Of a stretch of DNA of 64,000 bases, positions 3,777 to 63,999 are shown one piece after another (within the stretch, counting starts at the first letter, position 1; each line of letters opens with the position of its first letter). The position numbers and the translations under genes were made by a program. Source of the stretch: Bryum argenteum (taxonomy: Eukaryota > Streptophyta > Bryopsida > Bryales > Bryaceae); assembly GCA_037043015.1 (NCBI GenBank), contig CM073321.1:10052001-10116000 (forward strand), given 5' to 3'. The notes under the pieces are model-generated. The model ran no database searches and was not told the origin of the DNA. It was given only the letters and a program-made list of their open reading frames with translations.

Positions 3777-3845
3777 TTTAGGGTTTAGGGTTTAGGGTTT
3801 AGGGTTTAGGGTTTAGGGTTTAGGGTTAGGGTTTAGGATTTAGGA
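3777..3845. repeat. Interstitial plant-type telomere repeat
   Basis: Seven perfect TTTAGGG units run from 3777 to 3825, followed by TTAGGG and two TTTAGGA variants. Unique sequence on both sides shows this is internal and not a chromosome end. It also amounts to a run of telo-boxes (AAACCCTAA on the minus strand) upstream of the minus-strand gene fragment. Confidence 0.95.
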
Positions 3846-3849
3846 TTTC

Positions 3850-24688: not shown

Positions 24689-24751
24689 CCAAACATTCCC
24701 CCTCCATATCGAGGATAGTCCAAATCTCAGCTTTAATAAGGGAATGTTTGG
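24689..24751. repeat. Small hairpin unit inside the foldback element, copy 1
   Basis: CCAAACATTCCC (24689-24700) is exactly reverse complementary to 24740-24751, with a ~39-nt loop. A similar unit lies at 25419-25481, where the G-rich arm ends, with a related loop sequence (TCCAAATC-C-GCTTTA). Confidence 0.7.
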
Positions 24752-25418: not shown

Positions 25419-25481
25419 TCAAACATTCCCCCACTATATCCGGGAAAATCCAAATCCCGGCTTTAGTGAGGAATGTTTGGA
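25419..25481. repeat. Small hairpin unit inside the foldback element, copy 2
   Basis: TCAAACATTCC (25419 onward) pairs with GGAATGTTTGGA (25470-25481). It is the second copy of the unit at 24689-24751 and marks the transition from the G-rich arm to the AT-rich centre. Confidence 0.65.
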
Positions 25482-26030
25482 CTTCATTACCTTAAAAATA
25501 CCTGATAGGTGGAAGAAGGAGCCAAGGGGGGATCCAAGAAAAGAGAGAATTGAAGTTTCTATACTTCCCCTCTTATTCAAATTTGCCCACTACAAACCAA
25601 TTCCCCCCTCTATTTCAAAGTCTAGCTACCACATCTCCAAAAAAATGATCTTCTTAAAATGTGTGCTATTTCTCTCCAATCCCACCTTCTATTATGTTTA
25701 TTTCATTCTTCTTCCCAATACTATATTACAAATAAATTTATCATCCTAATGGTTTTATCAAATATTTGATTTTACGATCACAATTTATATTAAGACTAGA
25801 GAATATACTGGTGGGTTGTGTTATGTTTATTTCATTCTTCTTCCCAATACTATATTACAAATAAATTTATCATCCCAATGGGTTTATTATATATTTAATT
25901 TTAGAATCACAATTTATATTAAGACTAGAGAAAATACTGGTGGGTAGTATTATGTTTAGTCCAATCCTCTTCAAATAATATTTCATTTAAAAAAATTTAA
26001 AAAATTTAAAAAATTTAAACAAAATTTAAA
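25482..26030. other. AT-rich loop of the foldback element with a 128-bp tandem duplication
   Basis: Centre between the arms. A unit starting TTATGTTTATTTCATTCTTC occurs at 25693 and again at 25821, so two ~128-bp tandem copies are present. No gene seen. Confidence 0.6.
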
Positions 26031-28629
26031 AAAAGCCGCAACCCTCCTTACCCTCTCTTACCCCCTCTCCTATCCCACCTCTCTCACCCTTATCCCTCCC
26101 CCTACCCCCCCCTTATCCATCCCCCTACCTCCCCTTATCCCTCCCTCTACCCCCCCTTATCCCTCCCTCTACCCCCCCTATCCCTCCCTCTACCCCCTCT
26201 TATCTCTCACTCTACCCCCTACCCGCTACTCCTACACCCCCCCTTCCCCTCCCTTTACCCTTCCCCCCTCCTTTACGCCTACTCCCCTTTATCCCTCCCT
26301 CTACCCCCTACCCGCTACTCCTACACCCTCCTTCCCCTCCCTTTACCCTTCCCCCTCCTTTACGCCTACTCCCCTTTATCCCTCCCTCTACCCTCCTTAC
26401 TCCCGTCCCCCCCCCCCGCCCTACCTCCCTCCGCCCCCCCCCACCCTACCCCCCCTGTCCCTACCACCCTTCTCCCCCTACCCACCGGTACCCGCCCTAC
26501 ACCCCTGGTGCCCGCCCCACCCTCCTCTCGATACCCGCCCCACCCCTCCTCACTCCGCCCCCCCCCCGGTATCCGTCCTACCCCCCCTGTCCCGCCCCCT
26601 ACCCCAAAGACTCGCCCTCCCCCCCGATACCCGCCCCCCCCCCCTCCGGTACCCGCCCTACCTCCCCCCCCCCCGCCCTACCCTCCCTACCCTCCGCCCC
26701 TACCCCCCACCCGCCCCCCCCCCCCCGATACCCGACCCACCCCTCCCGGTACTCCGCTCCACCATCTCTCGTCCCACCCCACCTCCTCCATACCCGCCCC
26801 ATTCCCCCCGCACCGCCCCCCCCTCCTCCCATACCCGCCCCACCCCCGTATTCGCCCCCACCCCCCCCGCACTCCGCTCCACCCCCTCCGGTACCCGCCC
26901 TACCCCCGGTACCCGCCCCATCCTCTCCTGGTACCCGCCCTACCCCTAGTACCCGCCCCACCCCTCCGGTACCGCCTATCCCCGGCACCCGTCCCACCCC
27001 CTCCGATACCCGTCCCACCCCCTCCGATACCCACCCCACCCCCGCACCCGCCCCACCCCCCGTACTCCACCCCACTCCCCCATACCCGCCCCATTTCCCC
27101 GTATCCGCCCCACTCCCCCCGCACCCGCCCCACTCCCCATACCCGCCCCATTCCTCCCGTACCCGCCCCATTCCTCCTGCACCCGCCCCATTCCTCCCGC
27201 ACTCCGCCCACCTCCCCTCGTATTCTCCCCCCCCTCCCCTGTACCCGCCCTACCCCCCTCGTACCCACCCCACCCCCCCTCCGGTACTCCGCCTTTACCC
27301 CGCCGATACCCGCCCTACCCCGCCAGACCCGCCCTACCCCCTCCGGTTCCTACCCTACCCCTCTTAGTACCCGCTCTACCCCCCGCACCCGCCCCACCCC
27401 CTCGACTCCGCCCCCACCCCCTCCGGCCCGCCCCCCCCCCCCCCCGCGCGCGCCCTTCCCCCGGTACCCGCCTACCTCCTCCTCCCAGACTCGCCCTACC
27501 TCCCTTGGTTCCCGCCCTACCCCCGGTACCCACCCTACCCCCCGCACCCGCCCCATTTCCCCTGACCCGCCATTCCCCCGTACCCGCCCACCTCCCCGTA
27601 TTCACCCCACCCTCCCACCGCACCCGCCCCATTCCCCCGCACTCCGCCCCACCTCCCCCGTATTCACCCCACCCTCCCCCGCACCCGCCCTACCCCCTTG
27701 GTACCCACCCTACCCTCCGGTACCCGCCCTATCCCGCCGGTGACGCCCTACCCCGTCGGTGCCGCCCTCTCCGGCCGGTACCCGCCCTACTCCGCCGGTA
27801 CCCGCCCTACCTCCCCCCCGGTTCCCTGTTCTACACCCCTTGGTACCCGCCCTACCCCCTCGTACCCGCTCCACCCCCGGTACCCGCCCCCACCCTCCGG
27901 TACCCGCCCTTCCCCCAGCACGCGCCCCCTTCCCCTCCGGTACCCGCCCTACCCCCTCCGGTACCTACCCTACCCCCTTGGTACTGCCGCTGCCCCCGGT
28001 ACCCATCCCACCCCCGTACCCTCCCGGTACCCACCCCACCCCCAAGACACGCCCCATTTCCCCCGGGACCCGCCCCATTCCTCTCGTACCCGCCCCATTC
28101 CCCTGTACCCGCCCATTCCCCCGCACCCGCCCCACCTCCCCTCGTATTCACCCCACCCCTCCCCCGTACCCGCCCTACCTCCCCGGGTACCCACCCCACC
28201 CTCCGGTACCCGCCCCTACCCCGCCGGTACTCGCCCTACCCCCCTCGGTTCCCGCCTTACCCCCCTTGGTACCCGCCCTACTCCCCCGGTACCCACCCCC
28301 CCCCCCCCGTTACCCGCCCCTACCAATGTCACCCGCCCCCTCAAAAGTTCACCCGCCCCAAAAAAAGTTCACCCGCCCCCTCTAAATTCACCCGCCCTAA
28401 CAAAAGTTTACCCCGCCGTGGCATAACTTCACCCGCCCCGACGCCACGATGGACTTACACTTCACATCCTACGTGGCTTTTTACTACAAAGTTTCTTACC
28501 CATGAAAAAATTACACGCCTCCTACTATCAAGGTAGGCGGGCACTTTCGTCCGTCCGGGACAACTCGTACGTCCATTTTGTCTGCCCGTTTGCCTCAACA
28601 CGCCCATTATGACAACCTTGCGAGCAGAC

Positions 28630-34372: not shown

Positions 34373-35475
34373 GTGTTCAACCTGGCGGCGGATTATGACC
34401 TTTGGACGGATCTTTGCACCATTAGGGCTAATATATCCATAGCCCAACTTATCTGGGTAGCCCCCTCTTTGAGAAAGGAGTTCAAGGAATGGGCGACGAT
34501 GCCTCGGAAACCTCGGAAGGTGGTAATAACTGCTAAGATGTATACTAGTCCGTTGGTAGATGACGGTGCCTTCGAGATTGATGTCTCTATTTTAGATAAA
34601 ATCATCCCGGGCGCCTTGGTAGTGGCATCAACGTCATGTCCTCCATTACGATGGCTAAGCTAGGCTTGGGTATTACCGGTCCTTCTCCTTACATTGTTAA
34701 GGTGGCGGACCAACGACCAATTACTCCACTTGGCGAAATCACCAATTGCCACATGGAAGCCGGGGGGGAGGTCTACCCATTGACTTTCCATGTATTGAAG
34801 CTTGAGACTAGTAAGGCCGCATATTCCGTTCTTTTAGGGAGAGATTGGTTGAGGAGGGCCAACGCCGACAAGCGTTGGTCCATCAACCAATCAACTTTGC
34901 AATTTGGTCCGCCGGAAAATCGATCGATGGTGACCATCGGGTGTCAAGTACCCACCTCCTTAGGGACACTTGGAGAAGTGCCTAAGACAACGCCATCCAC
35001 CGATGGTGAACACGTGGACCTTATACACCCCGCGTTGGTCCCGGGAATCAATCCCATCGATTTAGGCCTGATTAGAAACCTTGGGCCGGGACTTTATGAT
35101 TGGGAGGATGACGGTGAATTTGCCACATGGCTTTGGGATCATCCCGAGGACCTTGAAACCCCTAGGTTACAATCGGTGAATGTCATCACTACCATGAGAG
35201 TTTTGGAAGAACCGGTAGGCCTATACCCCGGGGTAACAACCTTGGTTGATGAGGTTGACTATGAGGTGGTTTACAACCTCAAGATAGACGGAACCCAAAG
35301 CCTCGGTTTTGAAGGGCTAATGGAAGAGGAGGAAATACTCCCTCCTCCCCTTCACTTCCGCAAAACCTCCACTAACTTGGAGGTGGGTTCCAATTTACCT
35401 ATTTACCCGCAGTGCCAAGTGATTGGTATCACGGCCCCACCAACCTGGTCACGGTCCCAATCAACGATTGCGTAG
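34373..35475 (+). pseudogene. Retrotransposon aspartic protease region
   Basis: Frame 34373-34663 carries PLVDDGAFEIDVS, the aspartic-protease active-site region with D-D-G in place of the common D-S/T-G. Near 34640 the frame changes to 34636-35475, which continues with the family's KLGLGITGPSPY and LLGRDWLRRANA blocks. The protease would process the gag-pol polyprotein. The frame break and nearby stops make it non-functional. Confidence 0.75.
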
Positions 35476-36970
35476 ATGTGGACGTGTCTCTAAAGGGCGA
35501 AGAGCCCCGCCCCATCAAAATGGGGGCTCAGTTATCCCCGGAAGAAATTGAGAGGTTCAAAGGTCTTGTCCTCGAAATCCGGGACATTTTTGCTTGGTCC
35601 TATAAAGACCTCAAGGGCATTCCACCGGAGATTGCCCAACACACGATCCCCCTACTTCCGGGGTCCATACCGGTCCGGCAAAAGGAACGCCGGATGAACC
35701 CCCGCCTCCAACTCGTGGTCAAAGCCGAGTTGGAAAAGCTCTTAGAGGCGGACTTCATTAAACCGGTGGAAATCACGGATTGGGTGTCCCCTATGGTGCT
35801 TGTGAAGAAGAAAAATGGGAAGTTAAGGGTGTGCATCGACTATCGTCGTTTAAACAAAGCCACCCAAAAGGACCATTTCCCTCTTCCATTTGTGAACCAA
35901 ATCATGGATGAGGTGGCGGGACACAAGCTCTACACCCTCCTAGATGGATACTCGGGATACAACCAAGTATCCATCCATCCCCACAATTGTCACAAAACCG
36001 CTTTCACAACCCCTTCGGGGACATTCATCTATGTGGTCATGCCCTTCGGGTTGTGCAACGCACCCTCGACGTTCCAACGAGTCATTACTTCTATATTTTT
36101 TCGTCTCCTCCACTAGTCTATGTCGATTTCATTGACGATTTTAGCACCCAAACGACTACATTAGAACACTACGCAATGTTGCGTGAGTGTTTTGTACGGT
36201 GCCGTCGAACCGGACTCTCTTTAAAACCCGCCAAGGAGTACCTAGGGGTGCAAAAAGGAGTATTCTTAGGCTACGTGGTTTCCAAGGCCGGCAAGGAACC
36301 GGACCCCGAAAAGGTTGAAGTAATCTTCAACCTTGAACCCCCAACTTCGGTCAAGGGCGTACAACGTGCTCTTGGCCATTTTGGGTGGTATCGGGACATC
36401 ATGGCCAATTATGCTACGGCCGCCATACTCTTGACCAACCTCACAATGAAGGAGGTCAAATTTGAGTGGACCCGTGAGTGTCAAGAGGGTTTTGATGCCC
36501 TCAAGACCAAGTTGACCTCCTATCCATGTCTTGTGACCCCCAATTGGGACATCCCCTTTCATGTGTATTGTGATGCATCGGCGGTAGCCGTGGGTTCTAC
36601 ATTGTGTCAACCACATGGACCTAACGGCAAGGACCGCCCCGTAGCACTTGCTAGCCGCCAATTAACCGCCGCGGAAAGGAATTATTCCACCACGGAGAGA
36701 GAATGTTCGGCCATGGTGTTTAGTGCCAAGAAATTTAGGCATTACTTACTCATGAACCCTGTGGTTTTTTTTGTCGACCATTTAGCGTTACGCTACATGG
36801 TTAACAAATCCAACCTTAGCGGTCGGGTGGCCCGATGGGTTTTGCTTCTAGAGGAGCTAGATTATACCGTGGAGTACAAACCCGGCCGCTTGCATCTTCA
36901 AGCGGACCACCTCTCACGGTTGTCCGAATCAATGGGCATGGTTGACATCGAGAATGAGCTTCCCGATGCC
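35412..36970 (+). pseudogene. pol: Retrotransposon reverse transcriptase and RNase H
   Basis: Frame 35412-36116 covers reverse transcriptase fingers and palm: PMVLVKKKNGKLRVCIDYR, then LLDGYSGYNQV and MPFGLCNAPSTFQRV. Near 36095 the frame shifts to 35987-37951, which supplies the catalytic VDFIDDFS block, then connection and RNase H: VYCDASAVAVGSTLCQ, NYSTTEREC, and the late Asp in QADHLSRL, giving the D-E-D set. Order and motifs are those of Ty3/gypsy elements. A single indel separates the two parts of the reverse transcriptase, so it is inactive. Confidence 0.9.
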
Positions 36971-38240
36971 AATGTTTTCTCCATCACCATGACCCCCATG
37001 TGGGACACCTATATCTTAGAGTTTTTGAGCACGCAAAAACTTCCCGATCACCTAGACGCTAATGAGCGGCGCAAAATCCGGGTCAATAGCCTCCACTATG
37101 CTATTATAGCAAACCGGTTGTACCGGCGCGGCATTGACGGGGTCCTACGCCGGTGTGTTAGTGAGCCCGAGGCATCACGTATAATTGTAGCATGCCACGA
37201 TGACATTTGCGGTGGGCATTTTTCGGTTTATCTCACGGCCCAAAAAATCCTTAGAGCCGGTTACTTTTGGCCCACTATGTTTGCCAACGCCCACCGGCAC
37301 ACCACCAAGTGTGACGCATGGCAATGGTTTGCTCAGAATGACCTTCACATGGCGTTTCCTTTAATACCCTTGCTACCCTTGTTTCCCTTTGAGAAGTGGG
37401 GAATAGACTATGTGGGCCCTGTGCACCCCACTTCATCGCGCCAATTGGCATACATCATTCTTGCGGTCGATTATTTGACCATATGGGTAGAGGCCAAAGC
37501 GGTCAAGGTTGCAAATAAGAAAACCACGGCACTCTTTTTGTTTGAGAATGTTTTCTCTTGTTTCGGGATTCCACGGGTTTTGGTTAGCGACCGGGGCACC
37601 CATTTCCTCAATGACCTCATTGAGGAACTTAACTCGACCTACGGGATTGATCACCATAAAACCACCCCTTACCATCCTCAAACCAACGGTTTAACCGAAC
37701 GATGTAATCAAACCATCGTGAGGATTTTGACGAAGACTATCCATGACAATAAACGGGATTGGGACACCAAACTCAATGCCGCTTTGTGGGCATATAGGAC
37801 CACGTTCAAAGTCACCACAAAGCAAACCCCGTTTGCCCTAGTTTATGGGATAGAGGCGGTTTTATGCATCGGAATCAAGATCCCCTCCTTGCGCATAGCA
37901 GTCGAGGCTAGACTCCCTATTTCGGACTCTATCCACGATCCTCATGCTTGAAGTGTTAAGTGAGACCTGGCGCCTTAGCGCCCAATATATGGAGACAACG
38001 AACCGGCGCCGCAAGTTGGCCTTTGACAAGCTTCATAAGAAGCGGGTTTTAGCTCCAGGAGACTCAGTCATGCTCCAAGGTTCCACAAGGATGGAATTTC
38101 CGGGAAAATTCGATGCTATATGGCTAGGCCCATTTGAAGTATGGGATGTCCGTCCAAACAACACCGTTTAACTCGCAACATTAGATGGTGCACCTTTCCC
38201 CGCTCGCACAAATGCCGAGCGGTGTAAGTTGTACCACATG
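36971..38240 (+). pseudogene. Retrotransposon integrase and C-terminal tail
   Basis: Continues in the same frame as the RNase H. The N-terminal zinc motif has its two His (ACHDDICGGHF) and the first Cys, but the last Cys position reads Trp (KCDAWQWF). The catalytic core shows the D-D-E triad: WGIDYVGP, LVSDRGTHF and NGLTERCNQ. The frame ends at 37951; the chromodomain-less C-terminus continues in 37944-38171 (KLAFDKLHKKRVLAPGD; LGPFEVWDV) and past a TAA at 38169 (NNTV-stop-LATLDG, one C->T from Gln) to 38242. Confidence 0.85.
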
Positions 38241-46258: not shown

Positions 46259-46612
46259 GCAGTTTAGCTCGAGTCGAGCTAAACCGTAGCTGACAAATGC
46301 CTCTACAGTTTAGCTCGACTCGAGCTAAACTGTAGCTGACACTACCTACACAATTTAGCTCGAGTCGAGCTAAACTGTACTCGACAAATGCTTCTACAGT
46401 TTAGCTCAACTCAAGCTAAACTGTAGATAAGACTACCTACACAGTTTAGCTCGAGTTGAGCTAAACTATAGCTGACACATGCCTACGCAGTTTAGCTCAA
46501 CTCAAGCTACACTGTAGTCGGCACAAAACTCTACAGTTTAGCTCGACTTGAGCTAAACTGTAACTGACACAAGCCTCTACAGTGTAGCTCGAGTCGAGCT
46601 AAACTGCTGCCC
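46259..46612. repeat. Palindrome array of TTTAGCTCGA-TCGAGCTAAA units, eight copies
   Basis: Eight units at ~46-nt spacing, e.g. CAGTTTAGCTCGA followed by its complement, with spacers such as TGTAGCTGACAAATGCCTCTA. It matches the array at 2539-3108 in palindrome and spacing, but the spacers differ. It lies about 90 bp left of the terminus of element 2, with AGGGTTTAGGG (telo-box) in between. Confidence 0.9.
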
Positions 46613-49001: not shown

Positions 49002-49304
49002 CTACTCGCCGCCATCGGTGCCGGACTCCTGTCAAACAAGGAGCGCCGGCTTTAAGATTACTAAATGCGAAAACTTCAAGACATGAGGGAATAGCAGAGC
49101 AACTGCCATCACCATCAACGATCACAAAGACAAAGAGAAGGAAAGTATAGTAACTAACCTCTGGATTTACCGATGGAGTTATAGCCGTCTCAGTAGCAGC
49201 CACGGGAGAGTCATGGGAAGGAGCAACCTCTGAATGCTCCCCCACATCCAATGCGACAGCAGAGGTGTGATGGGTCGGCGTCGGCGCGGGGAAACCACCG
49301 ATGT
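49002..49304 (-). pseudogene. 3' exons of the element 2 coiled-coil/Gly-Arg gene
   Basis: An exon fragment (49304-49159, GGFPAPTPTHHTSAVALDV, ending TPSVNPE at a GT donor) and the last exon 49028-49002 (ESGTDGGE, stop TAG) match the end of the plus-strand gene (NPT, intron, ESGIEDRE-TAG). The 5' part of this gene is found 13 kb away at 62604-63998; element 3 splits it. AATAAA follows at about 48915 on the minus strand. Confidence 0.6.
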
Positions 49305-49327
49305 GAGCGTTGAGCGGTGAGCGGTAA

Positions 49328-50176
49328 AGTTTGAGCGGTAAGAAAAAAAAATTAAAAGTTAATGGCCCTATTACCATGTAATGGGTGGTTCTGAAAATTT
49401 GAAATGGTTATTTTTAGGCCTAAAAGTACCCAAAACCGTGGATATAGGTCCTTTATGCATTTCTTTGCATGGTATTGGGGTCCTACAATATTTCATAAAT
49501 ATTCCACATTTGTAAGTTTAAGTAAAAGTTAATTAAATTAGGGTTTACATCATCATATGTAACCCGTACAATTCAAATCATAGACTGGCCTCGTTCACTC
49601 TCAAAGACAATACTTTAACTGAAATTAGGGAGGGCCCATTAGGACATCAATAAATTTACTCTAATTATTTTAATATGTATAGTATAATTAGGGCTGACGT
49701 CATCAATTTCCTATTACACTTATAAAAAATATATGTAAATTCTTTCTGTATTTATAATGTGAAGTTTATAACTTCAAGTCGTCTTTCCGTGTCTCCTTGT
49801 AAGGTGTACAAAAAGACATTCACGTGGCATTGTAGTGGTCCGAGTTCGAATCTCCTGGGGCTCGTTTGAGCGTTGCAGTGCGTCGTAAAGCAGCTATCCT
49901 GAGCTATACAAACAGTGAACTAGAGCCCCTACCAACATTGGCTAGAATGAATCACTTCAATTGAAAATAAAGAAACGTTCTGAAACTTTTAGTTTGCATT
50001 GAGTTTAAAACTTAAACATTTAGATATAAATTAAGAAAGCATTAAACTTTCATGATTAATAGGTAAACATCATATATAGATATATTAACGTATAATAAAA
50101 CCACATGTATGACCAATGCCGTAGGGCAACTATATATCTCTACGTAGTCCAAACCAAACCAGGAAAATACAAACTA
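49328..50176. other. Left subterminal part of element 3, no gene
   Basis: AT-rich sequence between the left terminus of element 3 and the stop codon of the ParB/methyltransferase gene. Apart from the SINE-like unit at 49790-49935 nothing was recognised. Confidence 0.5.
49790..49935 (+). mobile_element. tRNA-derived SINE-like element, copy 2
   Basis: B-box-like GGTCCGAGTTCGAATCTCC at 49837-49855 followed by CTCGTTTGAGC, as in the copy at 850-1078 (opposite strand). The A box is degraded. Limits are approximate. Confidence 0.4.
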
Positions 50177-53100
50177 CTAAGAAGTTGATGGTGAACGACC
50201 ATTAAAGTGTTGGTCACACTGATCAGCCTCATCGTCTATAAACGCAAGCACTCTCGAGCTGAAGTGTCGACGTCTACTAGTGTCGGATAAGACGGGAGAA
50301 GGGGCAGCCACAAATTCCTGAGGTATCCGCTCCGCATAAGATGGTAGGGTGAAGGTTTGCGGAGGACTGCTGTAGGGACTTGCGCCGCCAATCAAGCGTG
50401 GATTGGAACCTGCGATCCTAAAAGTACAGAAAAAGTCAATACCAATCAATTTCTAGCAATTGAAGGTGACAATAGAAGGGGGTTGGGGAAAGTAAGAGAT
50501 AAATACGCACAAAATGTTGGGTGTAGCTTATTCTGAAGCGGTTCAGATGTGTCACTGTCGTAGTCATAAACTGGACCCGAATTGCCGCTTTCTTCCTCAA
50601 AAGCGGTACCATCCACGTATGCCGATAAAAGTCCGTCAAATATCTCTTCAACAGCTTCAACAGCAATGAGATGACGGTTCGATCGCGCGCAGGCAAGCAC
50701 GGAAGCACCTACATACCAGCAACCAACATCAGAACTACAATATTGAATAAATTGAATGAGAGATGGTATTAGTTACAACTAACCAGTACTAGGGCTCCAG
50801 TCAAAGACGATTCCCCGCTTGTCTGTGAGAGAATCAATAAAATACTGGATGAAGGAGGGATCCTTCTCTCGCGAGCCACGCCACGGGGTACCATCTTCCT
50901 TCTTCCGAATGGAATCATTGCTCGCAAAATTGAAAACATGGTCCTCCTCGTCGGGAAGAATAGGTACACCTGCGTACTCTTTTGCAACCTGTCTTATGGA
51001 GAATCTCGTGGCAAATGACTTCCGAACAAAAACCTTAATGTGGAAGTTGTGTGTCTGCAAAATCCACTAGATGAGAGAAATTTAAAGAAACTTTGTAAAT
51101 AATCATGAATAATAATTTGAATGTAGAATGAAGACCATACCGTTTTTACGTGGGGGTTCGTCGAGGCCATTGGCATGGGATTATATCCCCACCAATCTCG
51201 CACCATTCGGAATTCAAAAGCCTTTGACTCGGCATCCAGAGCTTTCTCGACTCGACGGTCCTTGGGATGCATAACAAGTATCGCACCCTCGTCTGTCAAG
51301 TTGTAGAAAGCAAAAAAGAAAACACTCGCGAAGTAGCTTTTCTCTCGCTTGTTCCATGAAGGGATTTCGACGGGCGACACGTCAGGCACGGGTAAGTTCT
51401 CGGGAACGTCTGCGTAGAGGAGATCAATGCCGGGATGCGAGTGTTTCGCACCCATCTCCTTACATGGGTACTTCCTGTCCTTGCCAATCTTTGGAAATCA
51501 CAAAAAGTTACACATGTTATAAGCGATGTGTTCCCATCAGAATTTAAGAAATAAAGAATGTAATAAAAAATTTAAGACACAATACTTTTCTGATGTGGTT
51601 GATGATGTCCATGACCTGTGTGTCCCAATCTTTTGTTTCATGAGCTGCCTTTTGAACAGAAGCTCCGATGTCCCCTTTTTCCAAGTACATTGGGAGAGAA
51701 ATAGTAATCTCAGAAGACAAACACTCTCCAACATGCTTCGGTTCAAAGGAATGGGAGTGAAGCGAACTTCTTTCCGGAGTTGTGGTCGGCTGTGACAGAT
51801 TGAGGAGGGGACCCTGCATTTGTAAGAGTGCCTGCAGAAATCTGAGTCAGTTGTCGACCGCGTCTACGTGCATTGTTGGTCGCTTCATGTGATGCCTGAG
51901 TCAAATCAGCTTCTTCTGGACCTTGAATGTCTTCTGCGAGGGGAGCAATTTCTTTGGATTCTTCGTGAAGATCAACTACAGGCTCCGCTACAGCGTTGCG
52001 TCGTTTTTTGTTGGCCCGAAGTTTGAGCGGTTGAGCAGAAGGAGGTGAAGAGAGAGGGGCAGGATCGGCTAGCAAAATTGAGAGGTCCTCATCGTCGTCA
52101 TCGTTGTCTATCTCCATAGGTGCGGAGCCAGCAGCGCTTGTACCGAGGTTTCGTATAAGATGCTTCTCCTCCTTATGAACGTAGTTATCCTGGCACTCAA
52201 GGAACCAACCACCAGTCAGTAATTGTGTTGTGGTAAACCGCCTCTGTTGCTCACTGGAGAAGAACGTGGAGGGATCGTTGGACACGGAGACGTCATGGAA
52301 CTCTAATGGAATGGCCCAAGAAGCTAGTGCTCCTTTCGCAACAAGCTCTTGTTTCAGATACCTACATTCAAGAAAATAAATTAGAATGACAGAATTGAAT
52401 GTTTAATAAAAAATATGTTACATTGAAATGATAATCGAAATACATACCAGAATAAAAGACGTTTTATTGTAACTTTGCCACCACCATTCTTTTGAAGATC
52501 GGAGCCTTTAATGAACCTCGGGCTAGCATTAAGAGAAAGGTAGTTTCCAAATGCCTTCTCCTATAAAAGCAACCTCCACTTCTCAACGTACGCAGATGGT
52601 TTTAAGACGGAATCATTCCATTGAATGTTGAGATTGTCATCTTCCACTAGTTTCTGCAATTCAGTTGAAAGGGATTGCTCTAGCTGGAAAAGAAGAAATT
52701 TCGTTAGAATTAAAAATATTGTAACGACAATACTATAGAAAACACGGTAAAATCCTTTAAGTTACCTGAGCCCAAAGAGATGCGCGATGTAGGAAAGCAA
52801 GCAATGTTTTATCTTTCATCGGACGGTCTTCCGGAAAGTGAACAGATCGACGAACTTCGGATGATGAGTTCCACCACTGCAGCCACTTTCCCTTGAAATC
52901 GAAGTGAATGTTTGTGGTGGCTACCATTTGCAAACGATCAATTGTCATATCCGGTTTCTCGTTATTGCTGTAGTGAGAGTAAATCTGCACATGAAGGAAA
53001 TTGACAAAGTTCAATTGTGATGTATGACTAAAAGACCATTAGGCTAATATTGAATTTGAGTAGGAAGCGAAGTATACCTCTTTTGGGAATACCTTCCCAA

Positions 53101-54456
53101 GTTTGTTGTTGGCAACAGCGACCATCTTGTCGAAATTCTTGCCGCGAATCAATTTAATTTCTGATTTAATGGCGTTATCCATGGCACTCCATAATCCCGG
53201 CCCTGTTTGTTTATCCTTAGGTACAGTGGCGTAGTAAGTTGCTTCAGCCTCATCCGATGCTTTCGCTAACCTCCTCTGTATAAAATTTCAATAGCAGTCA
53301 GAAGGTGCGAAGATCCAAACGCAAATAATTACGATAAAGCACATGAAAATCAACCTACCGCATACAAGAATTTGACGAAAACGTCAAGTGTAACCGGATA
53401 CCAAGTTTCTTTTTTGGCTTTGGCGTTTTTGCAAATTCTGTAATCTTCCGGGGAGATGAGGTCCTTGAAGTCCTCCAGTTTCAATTTCCCAAATTTTCTC
53501 ATGCGTTGCAATTTTGCACACAGACCGTCTTCGACATGGTCATGTTCGGTAGACCTACACAGCGGGATCAGAAATTAGGAATAGCCAAGTGAAAGAAATG
53601 AAATAAACATTTTCGAATGAATGCGACAAGTACTTACCAATTTATGTCGTTCATGGCGTCTAGAAGGAGATTGCTCTCTCCACGAGCATCGAGAACGATG
53701 CAGTCGAGTGAGATGTACCACGAAGGATCCATCTTGTGGTATCTATCAATGTGACGCATCCAGGCAGTAACACGGTGGTTACCTTCGTACACATAGTAAT
53801 ACTTGCCACTGAGATGTTGAAGATCGGGATCAGACTCCAGCATCGTCTCGAACTCATCATTTGCAGCTTTCCACAGGATTAGACCAAACTGCATCATCGG
53901 CACCAACCATTTTCTCTCTCCCTTTCCTATCAAAGGGAGAAACGTACATCACCCGATCGCCTTCTCGATAGCCTTTGTTGAACTCATTCTCCAACTTCCT
54001 CACGTCTTGTTCCGATATAGGACGAACCTTTGGATAACATTCGAGACGACACAAAGGAATCAGCATGCGAGACTTTTTAACAGGTTTGAATCGAAACCTG
54101 TTAATGATCGCAATGGAATCACTTTTGTGAATCATTCTCATTTCGTTAGCACTCCAATCTGGATCTTTGTCTTGAAGATGAGTTGGCATATGGACGATTC
54201 CAACATTGACACTCCCAGGCAGAGGAGTGTCTTCATCTTCGGAAATTGCCTCGAGTCCATCATGATGGTGCACGGCTTCAGGATGAGGCTGAGTTTTGGA
54301 AGGACTCTCTTCCGGGAGTCCACCGCGAATGTTATCAACATTAGCGACAGTTTCACGTAACTGTTCATCTCCATCGATCGAGAGAGTTCGTGGAGAAGGA
54401 AAAAGAGGCGGGGTGAATTCGTCATCTTCATCGGTATGGTCTTGAGCTAAGTTCAT
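50177..54456 (-). CDS. ParB-like domain plus DNA methyltransferase, about ten exons (element 3)
   Basis: Exons by splice sites: 54456-53638, 53554-53359, 53275-53078, 52984-52766, 52683-52448, 52361-51586, 51488-51141, 51054-50784, 50708-~50515, 50417-50177. After an acidic N-terminus, residues ~160-270 look like ParB/sulfiredoxin: RLECYPKVRPISEQDVRKL, then YYYVYEGNHRVTAW (GNHR core) and SLDCIVLDARGESN. The C-terminal third fits a beta-class DNA methyltransferase: HPGIDLLYADVPENLP at the DPPY position, NLTDEGAILVMHP, then GIVFDWSPSTGASVLACAR, where D-x-x-x-S-T-G resembles motif I (DPFAGSGT), followed by LIAVEAVEE. Breaks: a frameshift near 53900, a TAG in exon 5 (LLL-stop-EKAFG, from CAG) and a frameshift near 51790, so this copy is probably decayed. 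ParB-methyltransferase pairings are known in phages and bacterial mobile elements. Target DNA methylation is inferred; catalysis is uncertain. Confidence 0.7.
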
Positions 54457-55254
54457 CTGGCAATATAGAAACCAAATTCAGCACACCACCAAAAATAATA
54501 AGAGTGTGTCAAATTAACAATGCGATAAAAGTAAATAAACACAATGGCTTTATAATCAAATACATGATAAACTCATGAGATCAACAAACGAGACAACTAA
54601 GGTGAGCGCAATTTTGCGGCAAGTCGTGGAGAGCGTCTTGGGGCATCTCTAGCTAATTCTTTCGCCTCGAAACGTCTAGCTTTGGCCCCATTTTGTTTAA
54701 TTCGCAGGTTAACCGGTCGTGCAACCCGATCAACGTCAACACATGAAGTGAGACGGACAGGGGAGGTAGGAGGTGGAGTAACGGGAACGGAAGATAATGG
54801 TATCACTAGACGACGGGACTCTACGTAAGCCATGACACTATCTCTCAGAGTTGACAAGAAGTTGTCCGCGTCAGACTCCTCTTCAAGAACAACTTTCTCT
54901 CGCTCTAATGGATCCTGGAAAACCACACAAAACCAAAGGTATGTCAAATTCCAGAGAGCGTTAACCAACATTAAACACTATCCACCATCTACCTAATTAT
55001 AATATATATAATAGAACAAGATAATAGAACTTTTAAAAAATAAAACTACTATCACAATCGACCAAAGTTTCACAGATGAATGCGTTAAATACACACTCCA
55101 AGCACACGAAGGGTTCATGGTTCCGAAACCTGGATACTAACAAACGGAGGGCCTTTCACCCCCTCCCATGCTCTTTATCTAAAAATAAGGGAGTGGGAAT
55201 TGAGCGACGAATCTAAAAACTCAGAGAAAGAAAAATTTATAAGGCAGCGCTTTA

Positions 55255-55800
55255 CTAGTGCACAGGAGGACCACGAGTCACACGAAGACCACAACGGGGA
55301 GATCATGAAGGTAAGAGGAATCTAAAATTTTTGAAAAAAAAAAGTGAAAAAAGACAGAGCTCCCCGAGCCTTCACAACAAGGCGATGACGAGGTGGTGGC
55401 GAGCGCGAGCCCAGACCACGCTCTAAGACAGGATCCTCGCGGGCAAAGACAGACCCCTGCCAAGCTTCAGAGCCACTTCGGAGCTCGAATTCCACAAACA
55501 TCCGCGAGAAGCCATCACATGATACCCGAATCAGCAGAAGGCAGGGGACGACGTGGTGGCGAGCTCGACCTCGAACCAACCTCCAAGGCTGGATCCTCGC
55601 GGGCAATGCCTTTCACCTGCAAGCTTACCCGCATCCCCAACCTCGAAGGCGGCACATGAGTGCACAGGAGGACCACGAGTCACACGAAGATCACACAATA
55701 GTGGCGACCAGGGGCTGTGCGGAGGTGTGGCATTCGACCTCAGCAGTATTCAGCAGAACATGTAGTATCCCGAAAACACCATGGACAAGTTTCCACTGCA
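55255..55800. repeat. Duplicated GC-rich segments inside an enlarged intron
   Basis: CACAGGAGGACCACGAGTCA occurs at 55261 and again at 55662. GGATCCTCGCGGGCAA occurs at 55431 and 55591, each preceded by a related GTGGTGGCGAGC block. These look like a decayed insertion with internal duplication, not coding sequence. Confidence 0.6.
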
Positions 55801-56139
55801 ATCCCGCACACACTGTGACCATGATAAAACAGAACTTCAAACATTTCAGGTCTCCATACTTACCTTCAATCGGTTGAAGTAAAAAGCCTCCAATTCGGCC
55901 CGCGTTTTGACTGCATCTCGTTTTGATGGACAACAAGCTGATTTGTAATATTCCTTGTAAAACTCCGCAAACAAGCTAGACTCGGACGATTGCATACTCA
56001 CATTCTGGAGATCAACCTCGACGTTCTCTTCTTCTGGCTGATTCGTTACTTCATCTTCTTCCCCCAATCTCGCCATTTCTCCCTGTACTTGTGCAAACGC
56101 AGCTCCTTCTTCCAACACTAACTGGACATTCAAACATCA

Positions 56140-57060
56140 GACACTCACAGTCGAGAAGCAAAGGGAGGCCATGAAGATCATCGTTCTTATCATGCTCGTT
56201 GACGTCCACCCAAATCCAACTGTTAAATATAGCTACATCTCTGACAAAGCTCGATTTCTGACTCTGAGGTGCCAGTGCTTTTTTTTAGCCATCTGACAAT
56301 TCATACTAATATATTTCTGCCGAGCTATTCACTAAGCGGAATCAACGGGAGTATTTTCTAATGTAGGTCCTGGCAAGGGCGGCGCTTGAAAGAAGCCAGC
56401 CGATGCCATGGCCACACCGAAGTTCATCGTGCGCAAAAGTCACCGAGACAGCGGAGGATCCGATGACAGCAGAGGATACGATGTTCCCGAGGGACTGCCA
56501 AGCTCGGCGGATCAGCGTTTAGCGGAAAGTGACGAAGGCCAGCTGAGAGGCTTTGGAGTGGTGTGATCCGGGTATCATCGGGCTGCGGATCCGGATACAC
56601 TGGCGGGCATCGGGGTTCGGCGAAGCCCTGCTCGCGGTTTCAGTCCACCATGCGGCTGCCGTGATGCTGCCATGGGGCTGCCATGGAGCTGCGATGGGGC
56701 TGCCATCGGAGTGCCGTGGGGCTGCCATCGGGCTGCCATGGGGCTCCCACCTCGACAAGACCCTCTCTTCAAATTACTAATACAGTACTTTGTCCGCATT
56801 AAATTTATCAATACAATATATTGTACTTTTGATCAGCGCACTTAGACAGTGCAAACAATATTAAGATGAATTATACGTATGACATCAAACCAAACGAATA
56901 CTCATTAGTTTTAACATTATATACGGTTCATGAGACTCTTGTTTGTATTTGTCCAAGAAACCATTAAACTCGCATCGTTCTCTCATACATTTGAATACGC
57001 ATGTTTCGTATATTTCAAACCACCATCAGAACCATGGTTGCACTATATGAAATAGATTAC
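56140..57060. other. Stretch between exons with a short GC-rich tandem repeat
   Basis: Between the identified exons of the unrecognised gene. At 56651-56752 about eight imperfect copies of a ~12-nt unit GGGGCTGCCATC occur. Otherwise AT-rich and featureless; an exon may have been missed. Confidence 0.4.
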
Positions 57061-57839
57061 TCAGTCCTGTGTCCTGATATTGAAGAATGAACTCTCCTTG
57101 ACAGTATACTTAACCAGCCCTAGGTCCTCCCAATATACCAGGAAGTAGGGTTTCCCATGTACCTCCTCTAAGTCTTTTGCACTTGTCTCAAATCCATCCG
57201 CTACCTCATTATGTGTCCCCGGCTGAGAAAAGGCTTATGCTCGCTCGCCAATATCAGTGACCCTTTTCTCTTCAAAAGTTGCTGCTTCATCTCCTGATCC
57301 ATCGTCTTCCTCTTCCAATCCTATTTGATCCTGAAGTCAACCCATTTTGTAATTAATCCATATCCCGTATTTATGGAATATATTGACGTTTACAAATATC
57401 CACATAATTGTATCATAGACTACTTTATTACCTCATGTGTAGAGTCCACACCTCCATCGTCATGCCCATCTACGCAAAGAGTCTCGCTAGACGTCCTGAA
57501 CTGCCCTCTACGCCCTTCTTCCTCCTCGGCTTCTGCTTCGTCTGTCCCGACACTCTCCGGGACGCTGTCGAGGTTGAGCGATCGCATTTTGATAGTCCGC
57601 CTGAATGGCGGTAGCACATCATCGTCGATCAAGAGGTCATACCCGTCTGGCTCCCGATCATCGCCGCTACAGCTTCTCCCATCGCGATTCCGCAAAGCAC
57701 TACACCTTTGCGCTTTAGAATTAGTAAACTTCCTACCACCTCTCCGCTTCTTCTTTCGCTGGCCTATCTCTTTTCCTCTCTCACTACCGCTAGCGGATTC
57801 GTCCATACTGCTTGCAATAAGATATCTTATCACACGTAG

Positions 57840-58329
57840 AAGCTAACGAGTCCAAGTAATCCCACTACGAATGAAGATGTCAAACTATCAGTTTGAACTC
57901 CATTATGTAAGCTCCCCATGCGGCTAAGAAACCCTAATCAGCCACCGCGTATTTCCTAGCATCCCGCTATGACCGTGTCTGACAATCCATAATAAGTTAA
58001 CTTTTAATCGCATCTATTATCTAACTAAATATCTGACAATGACTGCCGCCGTCACTTTACATCTTGCACCTACTTATTTTATCGAGGAATCTATTATTTT
58101 TTATCGTAACTACTTAATGGCATTTTGTCAGTCCAGAGAATTTAAATATTATGGGTAATGCGCATTCAAATCATCATGCTCACAATTCAAAGTATCCGGT
58201 ATCTATACGTTTTATTATAAGTAATTACGCCTAATAGGTATTCTATACCTATGCAATCACCCTACACCAAATTCTCGTATTTCAACATTCGAAACGCACC
58301 TGAGACTCTCTTTCTCCGCGCACTTGTTG
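57840..58329. other. Divergent intergenic region of element 3
   Basis: About 500 bp between the start of the minus-strand unrecognised gene (57806) and the start of the plus-strand MULE gene (58330), so it should contain both promoters. No clear TATA box or repeat was singled out. Confidence 0.35.
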
Positions 58330-61300
58330 ATGTTGTCTTCTTCGCCTACGTCTATCATGGCATCCTCCACACCCTTACCTCCCGTTGCAGACGTCATTGC
58401 CATTAGATCTGAAGACTTAAGTCCTCCCATCTGCATTCCTCCAAGGGTGGATGGAGTGGCTGAAGTCACTCCGTCTTGGCTAGCAATTCGTTTCGGATTT
58501 GTTGAGTCCTCTCTTTGGTTAGAGAAACGTGTCTTGGATCCAAACACTAATCTTGTCCAGTACTCAGTGCTTGTCGAACCAGTCGACCTAGACAGTAATT
58601 GTAGAATGTATAAGCTACAGCCCGGACATTATCGACTGTTCGGCAAGACAGAGTCTGTCATGAACGCCTCCACCGTCCTCCTCACTCCTCGTAGTTCTTC
58701 TACCATCTCCACTGTTGTTCCAGTTCTTGCTCCTGTCAAGGTCGAACCCGGACTCGAAGTCCGAATCGATATTTCAGATTCATCCGACGATGAAAGAAAA
58801 GCGTCCATGCTATCCCGTCGACTTTCATCGAATCTGCTTTCCCCCTCGTCTGGTTCTGAACACAGTCTCAGAACCACCCCCAACTCTCTTTCCGCGTCCA
58901 GAGTCGAAAAACCCAAAAACATTCTTTCCTCGCTCCGTAGACTAGGTAGTATGTCTCGCAACAAAACTATACTCAAAAAAATAGATTTCCATTCCATTCG
59001 TACTCACAACGTCTCTTTCCTGCCTCCCACTTTCAATGGTGATGTCCTCTACATTCTCCCTCCCGTATTACCAACTACTGCTGTCAAGGTAGCCAAATCT
59101 ATGGAAGGGATGGACAAAAGATACGACGGCCATGTGTGGACCAGGACAATGACTACTAACATTAGTAACAACCTCGGTTTGTCTTTCCGCTACTCTAACT
59201 GTGTAGGTCATCTTCAATGCCACAATGGGAATTGCGGTTACTTACTTCGACCTGACCGCAGAGCAGAGGTGAATGAGGTGGAGTTTGAGGGCTTTACCAA
59301 GGACCCCTTCCCGGTCGGCCACGCGCCTCCTCCTTCTTCAACACTCGTCTGTAAGATCTGCAAAGAACCTCCCGTTTGTGTTGCTCTATGCCCTTCTAAA
59401 ATATTCTACGTATTCGGAGAGGAGAGTCAAGAGCGAGCGTGTGTGCATATCGGTACCCACGAACATCCTGTCAAAGTCGGAGACTACAGATGTGCACGTA
59501 AAATAATTGATGAGTTAATAGAGGAGCACGTAGAACGTAACCCCACAAGCTACCACGTCCAAAATAGTCATGGAGGCTAGCAAGGACTTACTCGGAAACT
59601 TACTTCTCCGTGAAGAAGGTGACCCTGTAACCTCCAAGCTCACCCTCCAGGAGCTAGAACCTATCTTCGATCAGTGTAAAGAGTTGAACTCTCCCAGCGT
59701 CAGGAATCGTATTACGACTTTTAAGCACTTACGCAGATACGGTGTCCTCGATGGGATCACCAAACCTCAGCAACTGGGCTTACATCCAACGTAACCAATT
59801 CTCGGGCCAAGGAGATGAAAGTGACAAAGTGTTCATTTTCAAGATGTCCGAGGTCGGCCCTGGAAGCGGTGTTGACCTTGTTCGTCGTATGCAGCCCGGA
59901 GGCGACCTGTCCCACGCGTGGTTAATGTTCGACCACGTCAAGCGTGTCAAGAACTGGACCACCATGGCGTGCCACGTTTATGACTCTAAAATCTGCCGCA
60001 TTCTAACTATTGCATGCTGTGATTTCCAGTCTGAAGACGGAGATGCTCAAATCATCTTCTGGAAGAACCTAAACCAAGTCATGGGCAGGAATAGAGTGGA
60101 AGCGCCGCAGTTTCAAGGGTTCATGGCCGATAGTGTGCAAGCCAACTGGAACGTTGTGCGGATCATTTACGGCTCCGGAGACCCTAAAGTCCCTATGGAA
60201 GGCCGCGAACGAACTTGCTACTTCCATTGGACGCAATCCTTAGAGAAGCACACCAAACAATACATCGTGCATGAGTTGCAGGATCAACATCGTTATCTTT
60301 GTAAGCAATACAAAGATGCACGCACCATGGCTGAGGCAGAGACAAGATACTGGGCGATCCGAGCATGGTGGGCGTCGGCGCAGGCCACCTCCGATGTTGG
60401 ATTAGGTCACCTCGAACACTGGCTTGCATTCTGGCACTTCCGATACAGGCAATGGGGTGGCTTCATGGAACTGGTGAGTCCGCAGCCACTGTAGCAATTA
60501 TGTACCGAGCTTCTATGTCAAGCAAATCCATAAATTTTATTTACTTTTTAATCATAGAATAATCTATTTTTTAACGATTATATTAACAACATTTTAAAAT
60601 ATTTGAAATTTTTAAAAATCTATTTTTAGATCAGACTTTCGGTGACGAAAGTCTAACCCGCTTTGGATATCGTGATCAACTTTTTTTGTTATTAAGTCAA
60701 AACTCTTTGCACCTTGCATGAAAATAAATATTCTGCAGAGGAGCTGGCGGAGATGCCTTCATGTAACCTTGCGGAATCTATCCATAACAAATGGTTGCAA
60801 GCGTCCGGCAACAAGGGTGGGGACTTGTACGTTGCAGCTGTTGATGATTATGTTCGTGCTTTCCTCCAAGTTGTGGGTTACCACGACTTCAATGGAGGTG
60901 GTAAGGGTGGTAATGGACCAACATCCGAAGAACTCTTACTTCGTCTTGCCCATAAAGCTCAACAAACCGGCGATCCATCAGGCCTCACAAAGGCAGTGTC
61001 TGACTATCCAGGAGCTGAAAAGATTTGTACCCGAGACGCCCACCTTGAGGGGGCGGAGGTGTTCGGATCCAAGAAACGCAAGGCTGATGTTCCGATTGGA
61101 GCTGATGATGAAACGCACAGACCTGACACCGTGAGCTACTCACGTTCCCGAATTGGGAGAAGGGTTACCCGGGCCTTGGCTGAAAATCTAAGTACTATCC
61201 ATGAAGAGGATGAAGTTGAGGAGCCACCGACAATACCATCCACTTTTGCTGGACCTAGTATTGAACGTGTGACCGCTGTTCAGGAGACTAAAGTAGACGA

Positions 61301-62159
61301 GAGGTTGTGGCACATTGCCCGTTTGAGGGAGAATTCTGCCAAGGCTTGTTGGGGTATCATGCGTAAGAGTAAAAAAAGATGTGACTCATGAATTATTCAA
61401 AAGGGGAAGGCGACCGCAGCTCCAACTTACACCGGAGTATGGCAACGCCCTCAAGAGGGGCCAAGAAAAATTGATCAGTTCTTTTTTTGTGCGGATGATA
61501 TTCGCAGGTGTGTGAAGGGTCATCGTCGCAAGTGGATTGAGCCATTCTCTATAAGCGAGGATAGACCCCCTATTCCTTCAATATGGCCTGTTAAGCTAGG
61601 GACTAACCTCACACGTGATGAAATGGAGGCGTTGGAGAATGCGGGCTTTCGACTACCACAAAAAGAACAGCTTCCTACGAACCGCACTTTCAATAATGTT
61701 GCCCCACCAAGAGACTTGTCCCATATTCCAGTCCCGGAGAAGCCGGACGTTTTCCCGAGGTCAAGGAGATCGAAGAACATGAAACGCATTCCAGCTATGA
61801 CTTCAAAGCACATGAAGAATATTGAGTCTGCCACCTCAATGCAGGCCAAAATTCTAAAGGTGACCATGATCCCGCAGCCTGGTTTTGGGTGTATCGTAGA
61901 CTTGGAGTCGGATTCGGATGCAGTTTATAGACTTTCAATTAGTAAATTCCCAGATTGCTCATGCCTAGTGTTCAAGAAAACAATTTCTACGTTAGGAAGG
62001 AGAGATCCATATCGACCATGCAAGCACCTATACTTCATCATGGTATTGGTTTGCAAATTTGATCCGGATGCTGACCTCTTCATACACGCGGCCACTCTTA
62101 GTTTCAACGAGGTCAAGAAGATTCTGGAGGGAGGAATCCTAGACCATGCTACAGATTAG
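58330..62159 (+). pseudogene. MULE-type transposase with SWIM zinc finger (element 3)
   Basis: ATG 58330 opens a 417-codon frame with an N-terminal Ser-rich part and a Cys/His-rich block (CVGHLQCHNGNCGYLLR; CKICKEPPVC), as in MULE DNA-binding regions. Frame changes at about 59575 and 59790 lead into the DDE-like core: AWLMFDHVKRVKNW, GFMADSVQANWNVV and CYFHWTQSLEKHT, the pattern of MULE transposases. Intron 60474-60740 follows (acceptor chosen to keep frame). The next exon (NLAESIHNKWLQ) is open to 62159 except for TGA at 61389-61391, one C->T from Arg. The end holds a SWIM motif: DCSCLVFKK with C-x-C, then RPCKHLYFIM with C-x-H. Two frameshifts and one stop make it inactive as read. It is the likely mover of element 3, whose 23-bp termini are short for a MULE. 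Confidence 0.85.
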
Positions 62160-62580
62160 AATGCCTTATATCTGCTCATCTACGTACGCTATATGTTAGT
62201 ATTATGATTGGGTGCTCCACACTCTATGTGATATTTTTTCACAACTTATTAAAAATTATTATATGAGTACCTACATGTACAGTAAACCTTGCCAATTTGT
62301 CTAACTCGGAGTACTATTCCCTTTCTAATATTACCTTAGAAACCTCTTGACATTTAAAAATTTGAGATATACTGTGGAGTTTTGTAGCTCAAGTCTCACA
62401 AAATTCAGGGAATTTAAGCCGTATTTCCACGGGTTTGGGTCACTAAATCCACGGTTATAAGTCTAGAATATTCGAATATTCCCAAGAATATTCCAAAATT
62501 ATTCTCAATTATTTTTTAAAAGTCTATATTTAGAAATATTTTTACTAAAAATACAAATTCAGCCCTAAGAATTCTAAATC
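62160..62580. other. Right subterminal part of element 3, no gene
   Basis: AT-rich sequence between the MULE stop codon and the right terminus (62581-62603). A GAATATTC-rich patch at 62465-62500 is noted without interpretation. Confidence 0.5.
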
Positions 62581-62603
62581 TTACCGCTCACCGCTCAACG
62601 CTC

Positions 62604-63999
62604 AGACGGTAGCAACGTCCGCGTCGGCGCTGCCTCAGACGGGACATCATCTTCTTTTGCCAGCTTCTCCGAAATCTTGAGGACTATGGGGCGGGGTGCG
62701 ATCTCCGGTTCAGCAACACTAGCAGGTTGTGGAGGCGCGACGATGGCTGGTGGACTCGCGTCACAGATGCTGAGGCGAGGCTGATCGGGATTGATGGAGG
62801 CATTGGGGACAGGAAAACTAGGGAGTTGGGATAAGATATTTCCGAATGATTGAAACATCTGCTCCATCTTGCCCAATGCCATGCGGGTTTCAGACTGAGA
62901 GCTTAAGAATGTGGACTCCAATCTGTCAACTCGAGCATTCGCGGCTGCGATGTCTGCTAACCTTTGCCTCTCTCTCTCCGCTTCTTCCTTTGCCTTGCGA
63001 GTCTTCTGCGCCTCCTTCTCTTGCCGCTTCTGTGCTCGCTTCTGATCCTTCGTGAGCATGGGGGCGACAATTTCCAGCTTCACTGGTGGTTGTGAAGGCT
63101 CTCCTTCTTCCCTAAGCAGAGGCACGACAGGGAGAAGAGGATCATCCTCAGCGCTCATAGGCTTTGGAGAACTAGGCTCCTCCGAGAAGTCGTAAAACCG
63201 GATTTCTATAGTATCCTCCGGCTCGTCCTCGGGCTTCCAGACACCTTTTACGAACCATTTGTCGTACTTCCCCTTCTCAATCTGCCTCCTGGGTGCGATC
63301 TGCGGGCATTGGGGAGCAGGCGCCAAAGTAGTCTCCTCCTGGGATGGATCAGGAGCCACCTCGTCGACTAAGGTCATGGCCGCGAGGTCAGCATCATCAG
63401 CGCGGTCATCGTCGTCGCCGTCGCCATCGCTCGAACTCTCAACATCGTCATTGTCTCACGAGTCAGAGCTGTCGGATGATGATGCATCCCGTGGCAGACG
63501 CTCTTGCCCAGGTACTACATCGTCTTCGCCAAAGAGATCCCGGTGGATGCGATCATTCGAGTTCTTAGAACGAATCTCCCTTCAAAACCCCGGGGGTGGA
63601 ACCCTGTGCTGAACCGGAGTCCCACCGGCCCCAAGATCGACGACCCCTGGAGACTGTTGGTTTAGCTCGAGTCGAGCCAAATCCTCCTCCAATCGTCGAC
63701 CACGACGCAAGCGCTGGAGGGGGGGGCTCTCAATGTCCCAAACGACATCGCAGGCGCCATAGTTGGCTTCGAGCGCCCTCTATGCTTGAGGCACAGTAGC
63801 GCTTCTTGACCGAGAAGCCTCTCCAGCTTGCGCCTCAGAAGAGGAACGCTTGGTAGATTTGCGCGGAGGGACGCGTGCTGTACCGCGGCCATGAGACGCA
63901 GAAGACCGAGCTCGACCGCTTCCACGACCCTGAGGGGGAGCACGAGCAGTACCACGACCACGAGGGGGAGCACGAGCAGTACTAGACGAAATTGCCACC
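62604..63999 (-). pseudogene. Gly/Arg-rich, acidic and coiled-coil part of the element 2 gene
   Basis: Paralogue of 38922-40761. Reading from the window edge: RG-rich repeats (ARAPPRGRGTARAPPQGRGS), basic KSTKRSSSE, TAG at 63782-63780, a stretch ending EEDLARLELNQQ that is encoded by a palindrome (63661-63688), TGA near 63597, the diagnostic block VVPGQERLPRDASS (GQERLPRDA identical to the plus copy), TGA near 63456, then KWFVKGVWKPEDEPED, IEIRFYDFSEEPSSP and a Lys/Glu/Arg coiled coil (~63050-62930). All three stops are single C->T changes from Gln or Arg codons. The frame runs into element 3 after RTLLPS. The ParB/methyltransferase part should lie right of the window. Confidence 0.65.

Follow-up and report, generated by a model that had tools for sequence, protein, structure and literature searches.

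What does a gene that joins a ParB-like domain to a DNA methyltransferase-like domain do inside a transposon of a moss? We addressed this question in a stretch of 64,000 nucleotides from Bryum argenteum (assembly GCA_037043015.1, contig CM073321.1, positions 10,052,001 to 10,116,000 of the forward strand; hereafter the window, to which coordinates refer), where such a gene lies within a DNA transposon of 13.3 kb. The gene is maintained by purifying selection, and comparison of its motifs with those of its relatives suggests that its product is probably a transposon accessory factor whose ordinary N6-adenine or N4-cytosine methylation activity (6mA/4mC) is gone in the high-copy families.

The gene, its copies and the element around it

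An earlier account based on the letters alone (the sequence-only reading) had placed a gene of ten exons at 50177-54456, and the gene model of this analysis agrees with it: the ATG and the stop fit, as do nine introns of 75–97 nt, all GT...AG. Its principal features, with the ratio of nonsynonymous to synonymous substitution rates (dN/dS) between copies, are:

50177..54456, minus strand: ParB-like/methyltransferase-like gene, exons A to J, with the ATG at 54456 and the stop at 50177
53638..54456, minus strand: exon A, which carries YEGNHRVTAW at 53760-53789
53359..53554, minus strand: exon B, the most constrained exon (dN/dS 0–0.03)
51141..51488, minus strand: exon G, with the methyltransferase motif IV position, ADVPENLPVP in 51384-51425
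50784..51054, minus strand: exon H, with PWRGSREKDP at 50857-50886 and the start of motif I, FDWSPSTG in 50782-50814
50507..50708, minus strand: exon I, with the end of motif I and the motif II-like LIAVE
50177..50417, minus strand: exon J, the C-terminal tail and least constrained exon (dN/dS up to 0.61)

EGNHR, and FDWSPSTG followed by LIAVE, were all found in the window gene where that reading had located them, and the order that it described, motif IV before motif I, is seen in the exon order (G, then H and I). The block that it had assigned to the DPPY position, however, reads D-V-P-E (full block DLLYADVPENLPVP, at 51384-51425).

The window copy is decayed: its reading frame is broken in exons A (~53.88 kb) and F (~51.8 kb), and exon E contains a stop (~52.56 kb). 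We compared it with 20 further copies, 10 kb each (21 in all). Open spliced frames of 1165–1183 aa were obtained, by gene models, in five of the 21 (L015, L016, L021, L026 and L027; in L016 and L021 one acceptor each lacks the usual AG and the model uses another); of the other 16, nine are interrupted by stops or frame breaks and seven yielded no model. In the genome searched (258.8 Mb, 25 contigs), the ParB exon returned 1054 first-look candidates, the best 150 of which were scored at 69–100% identity, and the YEGNHR codon pattern has 456 occurrences, compared with none for its reverse; the pattern of the window gene is therefore not due to chance. Counts from whole-genome lists are lower bounds, as each list comprises the best 150 of 387–1166 candidates.

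Six pairs of full-length copies gave dN/dS values of 0.12–0.18, so the gene is maintained by purifying selection. The stretch from EGNHR to exon B is the most constrained, exons G and H range from 0 to 0.15 (with some synonymous distances saturated), and the closest pair shows higher values in exon A (0.38) and exon J (0.61). Relatives at 36–100% identity also have open exons.

The claim that the gene belongs to a eukaryotic transposon is upheld by element ends, 10-bp duplications and a high copy number, the full element being about three times longer than the interval first read:

49288..62620, minus strand: whole transposon, 13,333 bp, delimited by where alignments with L017+L029, L021+L031 and other copies break off
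62580..62620, minus strand: 5′ terminal inverted repeat with TGAGCGG heptads
49288..49335, plus strand: 3′ terminal inverted repeat with TGAGCGG heptads
62621..62630, no strand: target site duplication GCGCCGACGC (element orientation)
49278..49287, no strand: second copy of the target site duplication
58225..62159, plus strand: transposase gene in several open pieces, divergent from the ParB-methyltransferase gene
54597..56136, minus strand: small third gene in two open pieces (55846-56136 and 54597-54977), with the basic C-terminus APRRSPRLAAKL

The transposon begins at its 5′ end with GGACGTTGCTACCG and closes at its 3′ end with GGTGGTTTCCCC. Both ends contain a common stretch, TGTGAGCGTTGAGCGG (one mismatch at the 5′ end in the window), and then a run of TGAGCGG heptads that differs in length; the terminal inverted repeats are imperfect, and their outermost 13 bases are mostly unlike between the ends. 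The 3′ end was found at the expected place with at most two mismatches in 14 of the 21 copies, and its 22 bases have 164 exact occurrences in the genome (0 for the reversed pattern). Target duplications were exact and 10 bp long in all three copies with both flanks read, and excision in silico of the element together with one duplication fuses the window flanks into a single 415-aa open frame. Helitron and Crypton readings, entertained with one end known, were dropped once both ends and the 10-bp duplications had been found. An Rfam scan of the window gave no match.

The transposase pieces returned 1166 first-look candidates in the genome (best 150 scored, 85–100%). For 38 of the best 150 ParB places, a listed transposase lies 3–16 kb upstream and on the other strand (median distance 8.3 kb), compared with 0, 0 and 2 in wrong geometries and a mean of 0.785 (maximum 4) under random placement. 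The pieces contain what we take to be the acidic and C-H blocks of a transposase and a SWIM-like CxC...CxH finger; searched against Pfam at E values up to 10, three of them matched 0 families. Mutator-like elements (MULEs) likewise have terminal inverted repeats, a SWIM-like finger and extra open reading frames, and the 10-bp duplication falls in their range (8–11 bp in the available part of a MULE survey, PMC6446971). They are, however, described by the Pfam model PF10551, which leaves the transposase here unmatched: its 72 places in the genome include none within 2 kb of the best 150 transposases, and the element would therefore be MULE-like in anatomy, not a MULE. The C-terminal piece of the third gene was matched in all 21 copies (one with a stop, another split in two pieces) and the N-terminal piece in eight of the 21 (many stretches are too short to reach it); the third gene had nothing above cut-off in Pfam.

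The elements look mosaic from uneven identity along the window copy and L021(+L031): the first 2.6 kb from the transposase end share 93% identity, the next 2.8 kb 85%, and the ParB-methyltransferase gene ~70%.

Affinities of the two domains

The C-terminal domain is, from sequence comparison, a relative of the beta-class amino-methyltransferases. The strongest evidence for this homology comes from L037/L038, a relative within the same genome whose two joined exons exceed the cut-off of the Pfam N6_N4_Mtase model (PF01555; 33.1 bits vs 26.7, E = 7.4e-8) in a match that spans almost the entire model, and BLASTP connects L037 to the window family (E = 3e-16, 27% identity). The five spliced proteins themselves match N6_N4_Mtase weakly (5/5, best E = 0.0077, all below cut-off), phage methyltransferase families in a PHROG-type scan with a best E of 5.1e-5, and one DNA methyltransferase model of NCBIfam in three of five (E = 0.073); Pfam scans of single exons gave no match. 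A tblastn search against phages returned 127 records at E up to 10, and among the matches listed 16 of 20 phage records, several near-identical, and 17 of 20 plasmid records were annotated as methyltransferases.

Profile comparison (hhalign) of the window family with four phage enzymes and one plasmid enzyme gave E = 7.6e-8, and of ten diverse rows with the same five E = 3.6e-11; these comparisons are not fully independent, since the five were chosen from the best matches and the match covers the motif I half only. Two phage ParB-methyltransferase fusions found by ParB bait gave E = 6.8e-4 against the window family alone and 3.8e-7 against the ten rows, over 187 columns and with D-P-P-Y opposite D-V-P-E, while controls gave 0.33 and 0.45. 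The methyltransferase ancestry proposed in the sequence-only reading is thus borne out by the L037 relative above the Pfam cut-off and by the alignment of profiles with phage fusions. Three weak matches in a PDB sequence search (E = 0.75–1.7) were taken as chance. No relative was found in viral contigs, scanned with the whole protein and with its methyltransferase and ParB-like parts, or in one scan of prokaryote genomes.

The N-terminal part is likely ParB-like, judged by motif and register. The box [YW][ED]GNHR is present in all four families read there (window family, L055, L056 and L067), ~2–2.5 kb upstream of motif IV; L067, in a 243-aa open frame with WDGNHR, lies upstream of L037, and the ParB-like domain precedes motif IV in three divergent families. 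Three places in the first 19.2 Mb of contig C1, at 43–44% identity, have the same GNHR-to-motif IV spacing (by eye). In profile alignment the box is in register with phage ParB at a weak E of 0.046–0.061, and PHROG 1033 matches the ParB-like part weakly (E = 0.0035 at best, in 2/5 proteins; elsewhere 0.04, in 4/5). Pfam scans of the spliced proteins and relatives gave no ParB match, tblastn of the window-family ParB-like part against phages no match, and tblastn of the L056-family part five Enterococcus phage records at E = 5. What had been read as a ParB-methyltransferase fusion therefore keeps its domain order, which is that of the phage fusions, but its ParB half is statistically weak. In fusions of phages and bacteria (for example the proteins of Streptococcus phages Javan486 and Javan49), a ParB-like domain likewise precedes the beta-class methyltransferase; they are single open frames of 388–418 aa with DPPY and GSG intact, whereas the moss protein has ~1170 aa, ten exons, mostly D-x-P-[E/D], an altered motif I and a long insert in the ParB part.

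Active-site motifs and the possible role of the protein

A first look across the genome with the motif IV exon of a second family (family 2, which includes L042, L043 and L046) gave 869 candidates, of which the best 150 were scored and match at 36–100% identity. Ten representatives read DL-x-x-AD-x-P-[E/D]-x-L-x-VP at motif IV (E in eight, D in two), and the pattern [DNS]xP[YFW] is absent from 10 of 11 representatives, the window family included, an acidic residue replacing the aromatic one. L040, a family-2 copy, has D-I-S-E, with S instead of P. At motif I, the window family (DWSPSTG or DWSASTG), L039 (DWFASTG), L050 (DWQTNTG) and L037 (DLTASTG) are without GxG, and L047 reads DWKAGT as far as the exon end; GxG is gone in the window family, yet the surrounding residues are invariant among the five full-length copies. 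No representative read has an aromatic motif IV and GxG together. By eye, L045 looks like an unrelated class I methyltransferase.

In a bdelloid rotifer enzyme, N4CMT, changing SPPY to APPA abolishes activity, according to the available part of the report (PMC8885841), and ordinary 6mA/4mC catalysis is therefore doubtful in the window's family. The adenine or N4-cytosine methylation suggested in the sequence-only reading thus does not hold up well for that family, in which an acidic residue stands for the aromatic one, as in 10 of 11 rows, and GxG is lost. That reading would have been refuted had every homologue lost the catalytic residues, but the low-copy L037 family (three places, L037 and L038 among them) has D-T-P-F and passes the N6_N4_Mtase cut-off. 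The three places are close in sequence, with a gap down to 40% identity after them; L037, L038 and L067, at C4:20498821-20501900 and C7:9878952-9879296, have open frames with D-T-P-F and WDGNHR, and two places on C4, oppositely oriented, are separated by 18 kb. The family may represent a gene of the host or an element of recent origin and low copy number.

At about even confidence, we favor an autonomous MULE-like transposon whose ~1170-aa protein serves as an anti-silencing or transposition co-factor on the element's own DNA, with N6-adenine/N4-cytosine methylation lost in the high-copy families; an anti-silencing or co-transposition role is the most likely one for the protein. The element would encode a transposase, a small basic protein and the accessory protein, which appears to have its architecture in common with phage and bacterial ParB-methyltransferase fusions, has acquired introns and occurs in many element families. 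Its ancestor would have been a methyltransferase, and the high-copy families would have lost ordinary activity while the fold was retained, as they expanded, as a module binding DNA or S-adenosylmethionine (SAM). Within its own element, the protein may target the TGAGCGG heptads at the ends or the non-coding tandem repeats, and act as a recognizing co-factor in the manner of VANC, which offers a precedent, or of mudrB.

VANC binds the non-coding tandem repeats of its own VANDAL family and removes silencing marks, as given in the part of the report at hand (PMC10398659). VANDAL elements are likewise DNA transposons with an extra, diverse gene, non-coding tandem repeats and many related families; the action of VANC was, however, shown by experiment, whereas the accessory protein here is known from sequence alone.

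Several observations weigh against the co-factor reading. The ParB statistics are weak, and the transposase is not matched by the Pfam MULE model, which does find 72 other places. The L037 family keeps its aromatic residue (IIIDTPF), and two families keep GxG at motif I (L052/L053, DFKTGVG; L054, DFRAGTG), so that activity elsewhere in the superfamily could persist. The acidic residue of motif IV is conserved, not drifting, which makes unusual catalysis possible, and the motif IV readings cover no more than some dozen of the several hundred places.

Active amino-methylation of the element's DNA (6mA/4mC) or of another substrate, by an enzyme with an unusual D-x-P-E/D in the high-copy families, would account for a motif IV position conserved across families, for purifying selection on exons G and H, for the GxG of L052–L054 and for a D-T-P-F low-copy relative above the Pfam cut-off. 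We consider it unlikely, given that the aromatic residue is missing in 10 of 11 rows, that the window family is without GxG, that both features are never in one row, and that the SPPY-to-APPA change in N4CMT loses activity in what was available of PMC8885841. Just as unlikely, in our estimate, is a ParB-like domain that does the work, as nuclease/NTPase or as a clamp in transposition or replication, with a methyltransferase domain that just recognizes DNA; the strong constraint from EGNHR to exon B and the nicking activity of a bacterial ParB-methylase (in the available part of PMC5512222) speak for it, and the weak ParB homology speaks against it. It is distinctly unlikely, as a joint proposal, that a phage-type ParB-methyltransferase was acquired and kept as D-T-P-F in a low-copy line, and that the fixed D-x-P-[E/D] of the expanding families represents a new SAM-dependent or SAM-sensing self-recognition on element DNA or chromatin which controls silencing or transposition. 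A captured passenger gene without function is very improbable: full open frames are missing in 16 of 21 copies (nine broken, seven that could not be modelled), but dN/dS of 0.12–0.18 between full-length copies and open exons in relatives at 36–100% identity contradict it. That both resemblances are spurious is hardly credible, for although the window family is under every Pfam cut-off, lacks a PDB sequence match and has a weak ParB match, L037 exceeds the PF01555 cut-off with E = 3e-16 to the window family, and profile E values of 3.6e-11 and 3.8e-7 compare with 0.33 and 0.45 in controls.

Other eukaryotic systems differ from the moss element in kind. Retrotransposons carrying DNA methyltransferases (DNMTs), with de novo activity reported, are described from Symbiodinium and Klebsormidium, and DNMT-encoding DNA transposons in marine viruses are mentioned, in the available part of PMC5890265. 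The former likewise encode a protein of DNA methyltransferase ancestry in a eukaryotic transposon, but theirs are C5-cytosine enzymes, whereas here an amino-methyltransferase-type domain with a mostly altered motif sits in a DNA transposon. The rotifer N4CMT is likewise an N6_N4_Mtase-type domain in a eukaryote; it is, from the portion of PMC8885841 at hand, a host gene with SPPY and shown activity, unlike the high-copy transposon gene here. In the open-access literature (titles and abstract openings), no ParB-methyltransferase gene was found in a eukaryotic DNA transposon, and the words "ParB" and "methyltransferase" are absent from the main text of the MULE survey (PMC6446971). If the reading as an accessory factor is true, a DNA transposon of a land plant would carry an accessory gene of amino-methyltransferase type, present in hundreds of copies across many families, with full-length copies under selection and a low-copy relative in which the aromatic motif is kept. 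This would bear on two questions, whether transposons recruit DNA-modification folds against silencing and whether enzymes of the 6mA/4mC type are at work in plants, and the altered and near-canonical families, as a pair, make loss or change of catalysis directly testable.

Other features of the copies and the window

Two further copies, L017+L029 and L011+L030, have non-coding tandem repeats of ~330 bp upstream of the ParB gene, near the divergent promoters, which recall VANC target regions. Dirigent domains, which are found in land-plant proteins, exceed the cut-off at twenty places in the genome and at none in 14 control genomes. Contig C1 (44 Mb, 17% of the genome) holds 69 of the best 150 ParB places and 0 of 21 dirigent places, and is perhaps a sex or heterochromatic chromosome.

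Elsewhere in the window, long G-rich and then C-rich tandem arrays surround an AT-rich core (~25.7-26.0 kb) at 23900-28440, and the GC skew is strong and changes sign between 24-26 kb (+0.55) and 26-28 kb (-0.73). Tandem palindromic repeats TTTAGCTCGACTCGAGCTAAA occur at 2755-3108, 21057-21139 and 46260-46606, and an interstitial GGGTTTA array of ~12 copies, presumably of the plant telomere type, at 3766-3848. A 593-aa open frame at 7891-9672 on the minus strand ends in DUF7869 (E = 3.9e-31), and domains of reverse transcriptase, RNase H and integrase mark a retrotransposon at 35376-37951.

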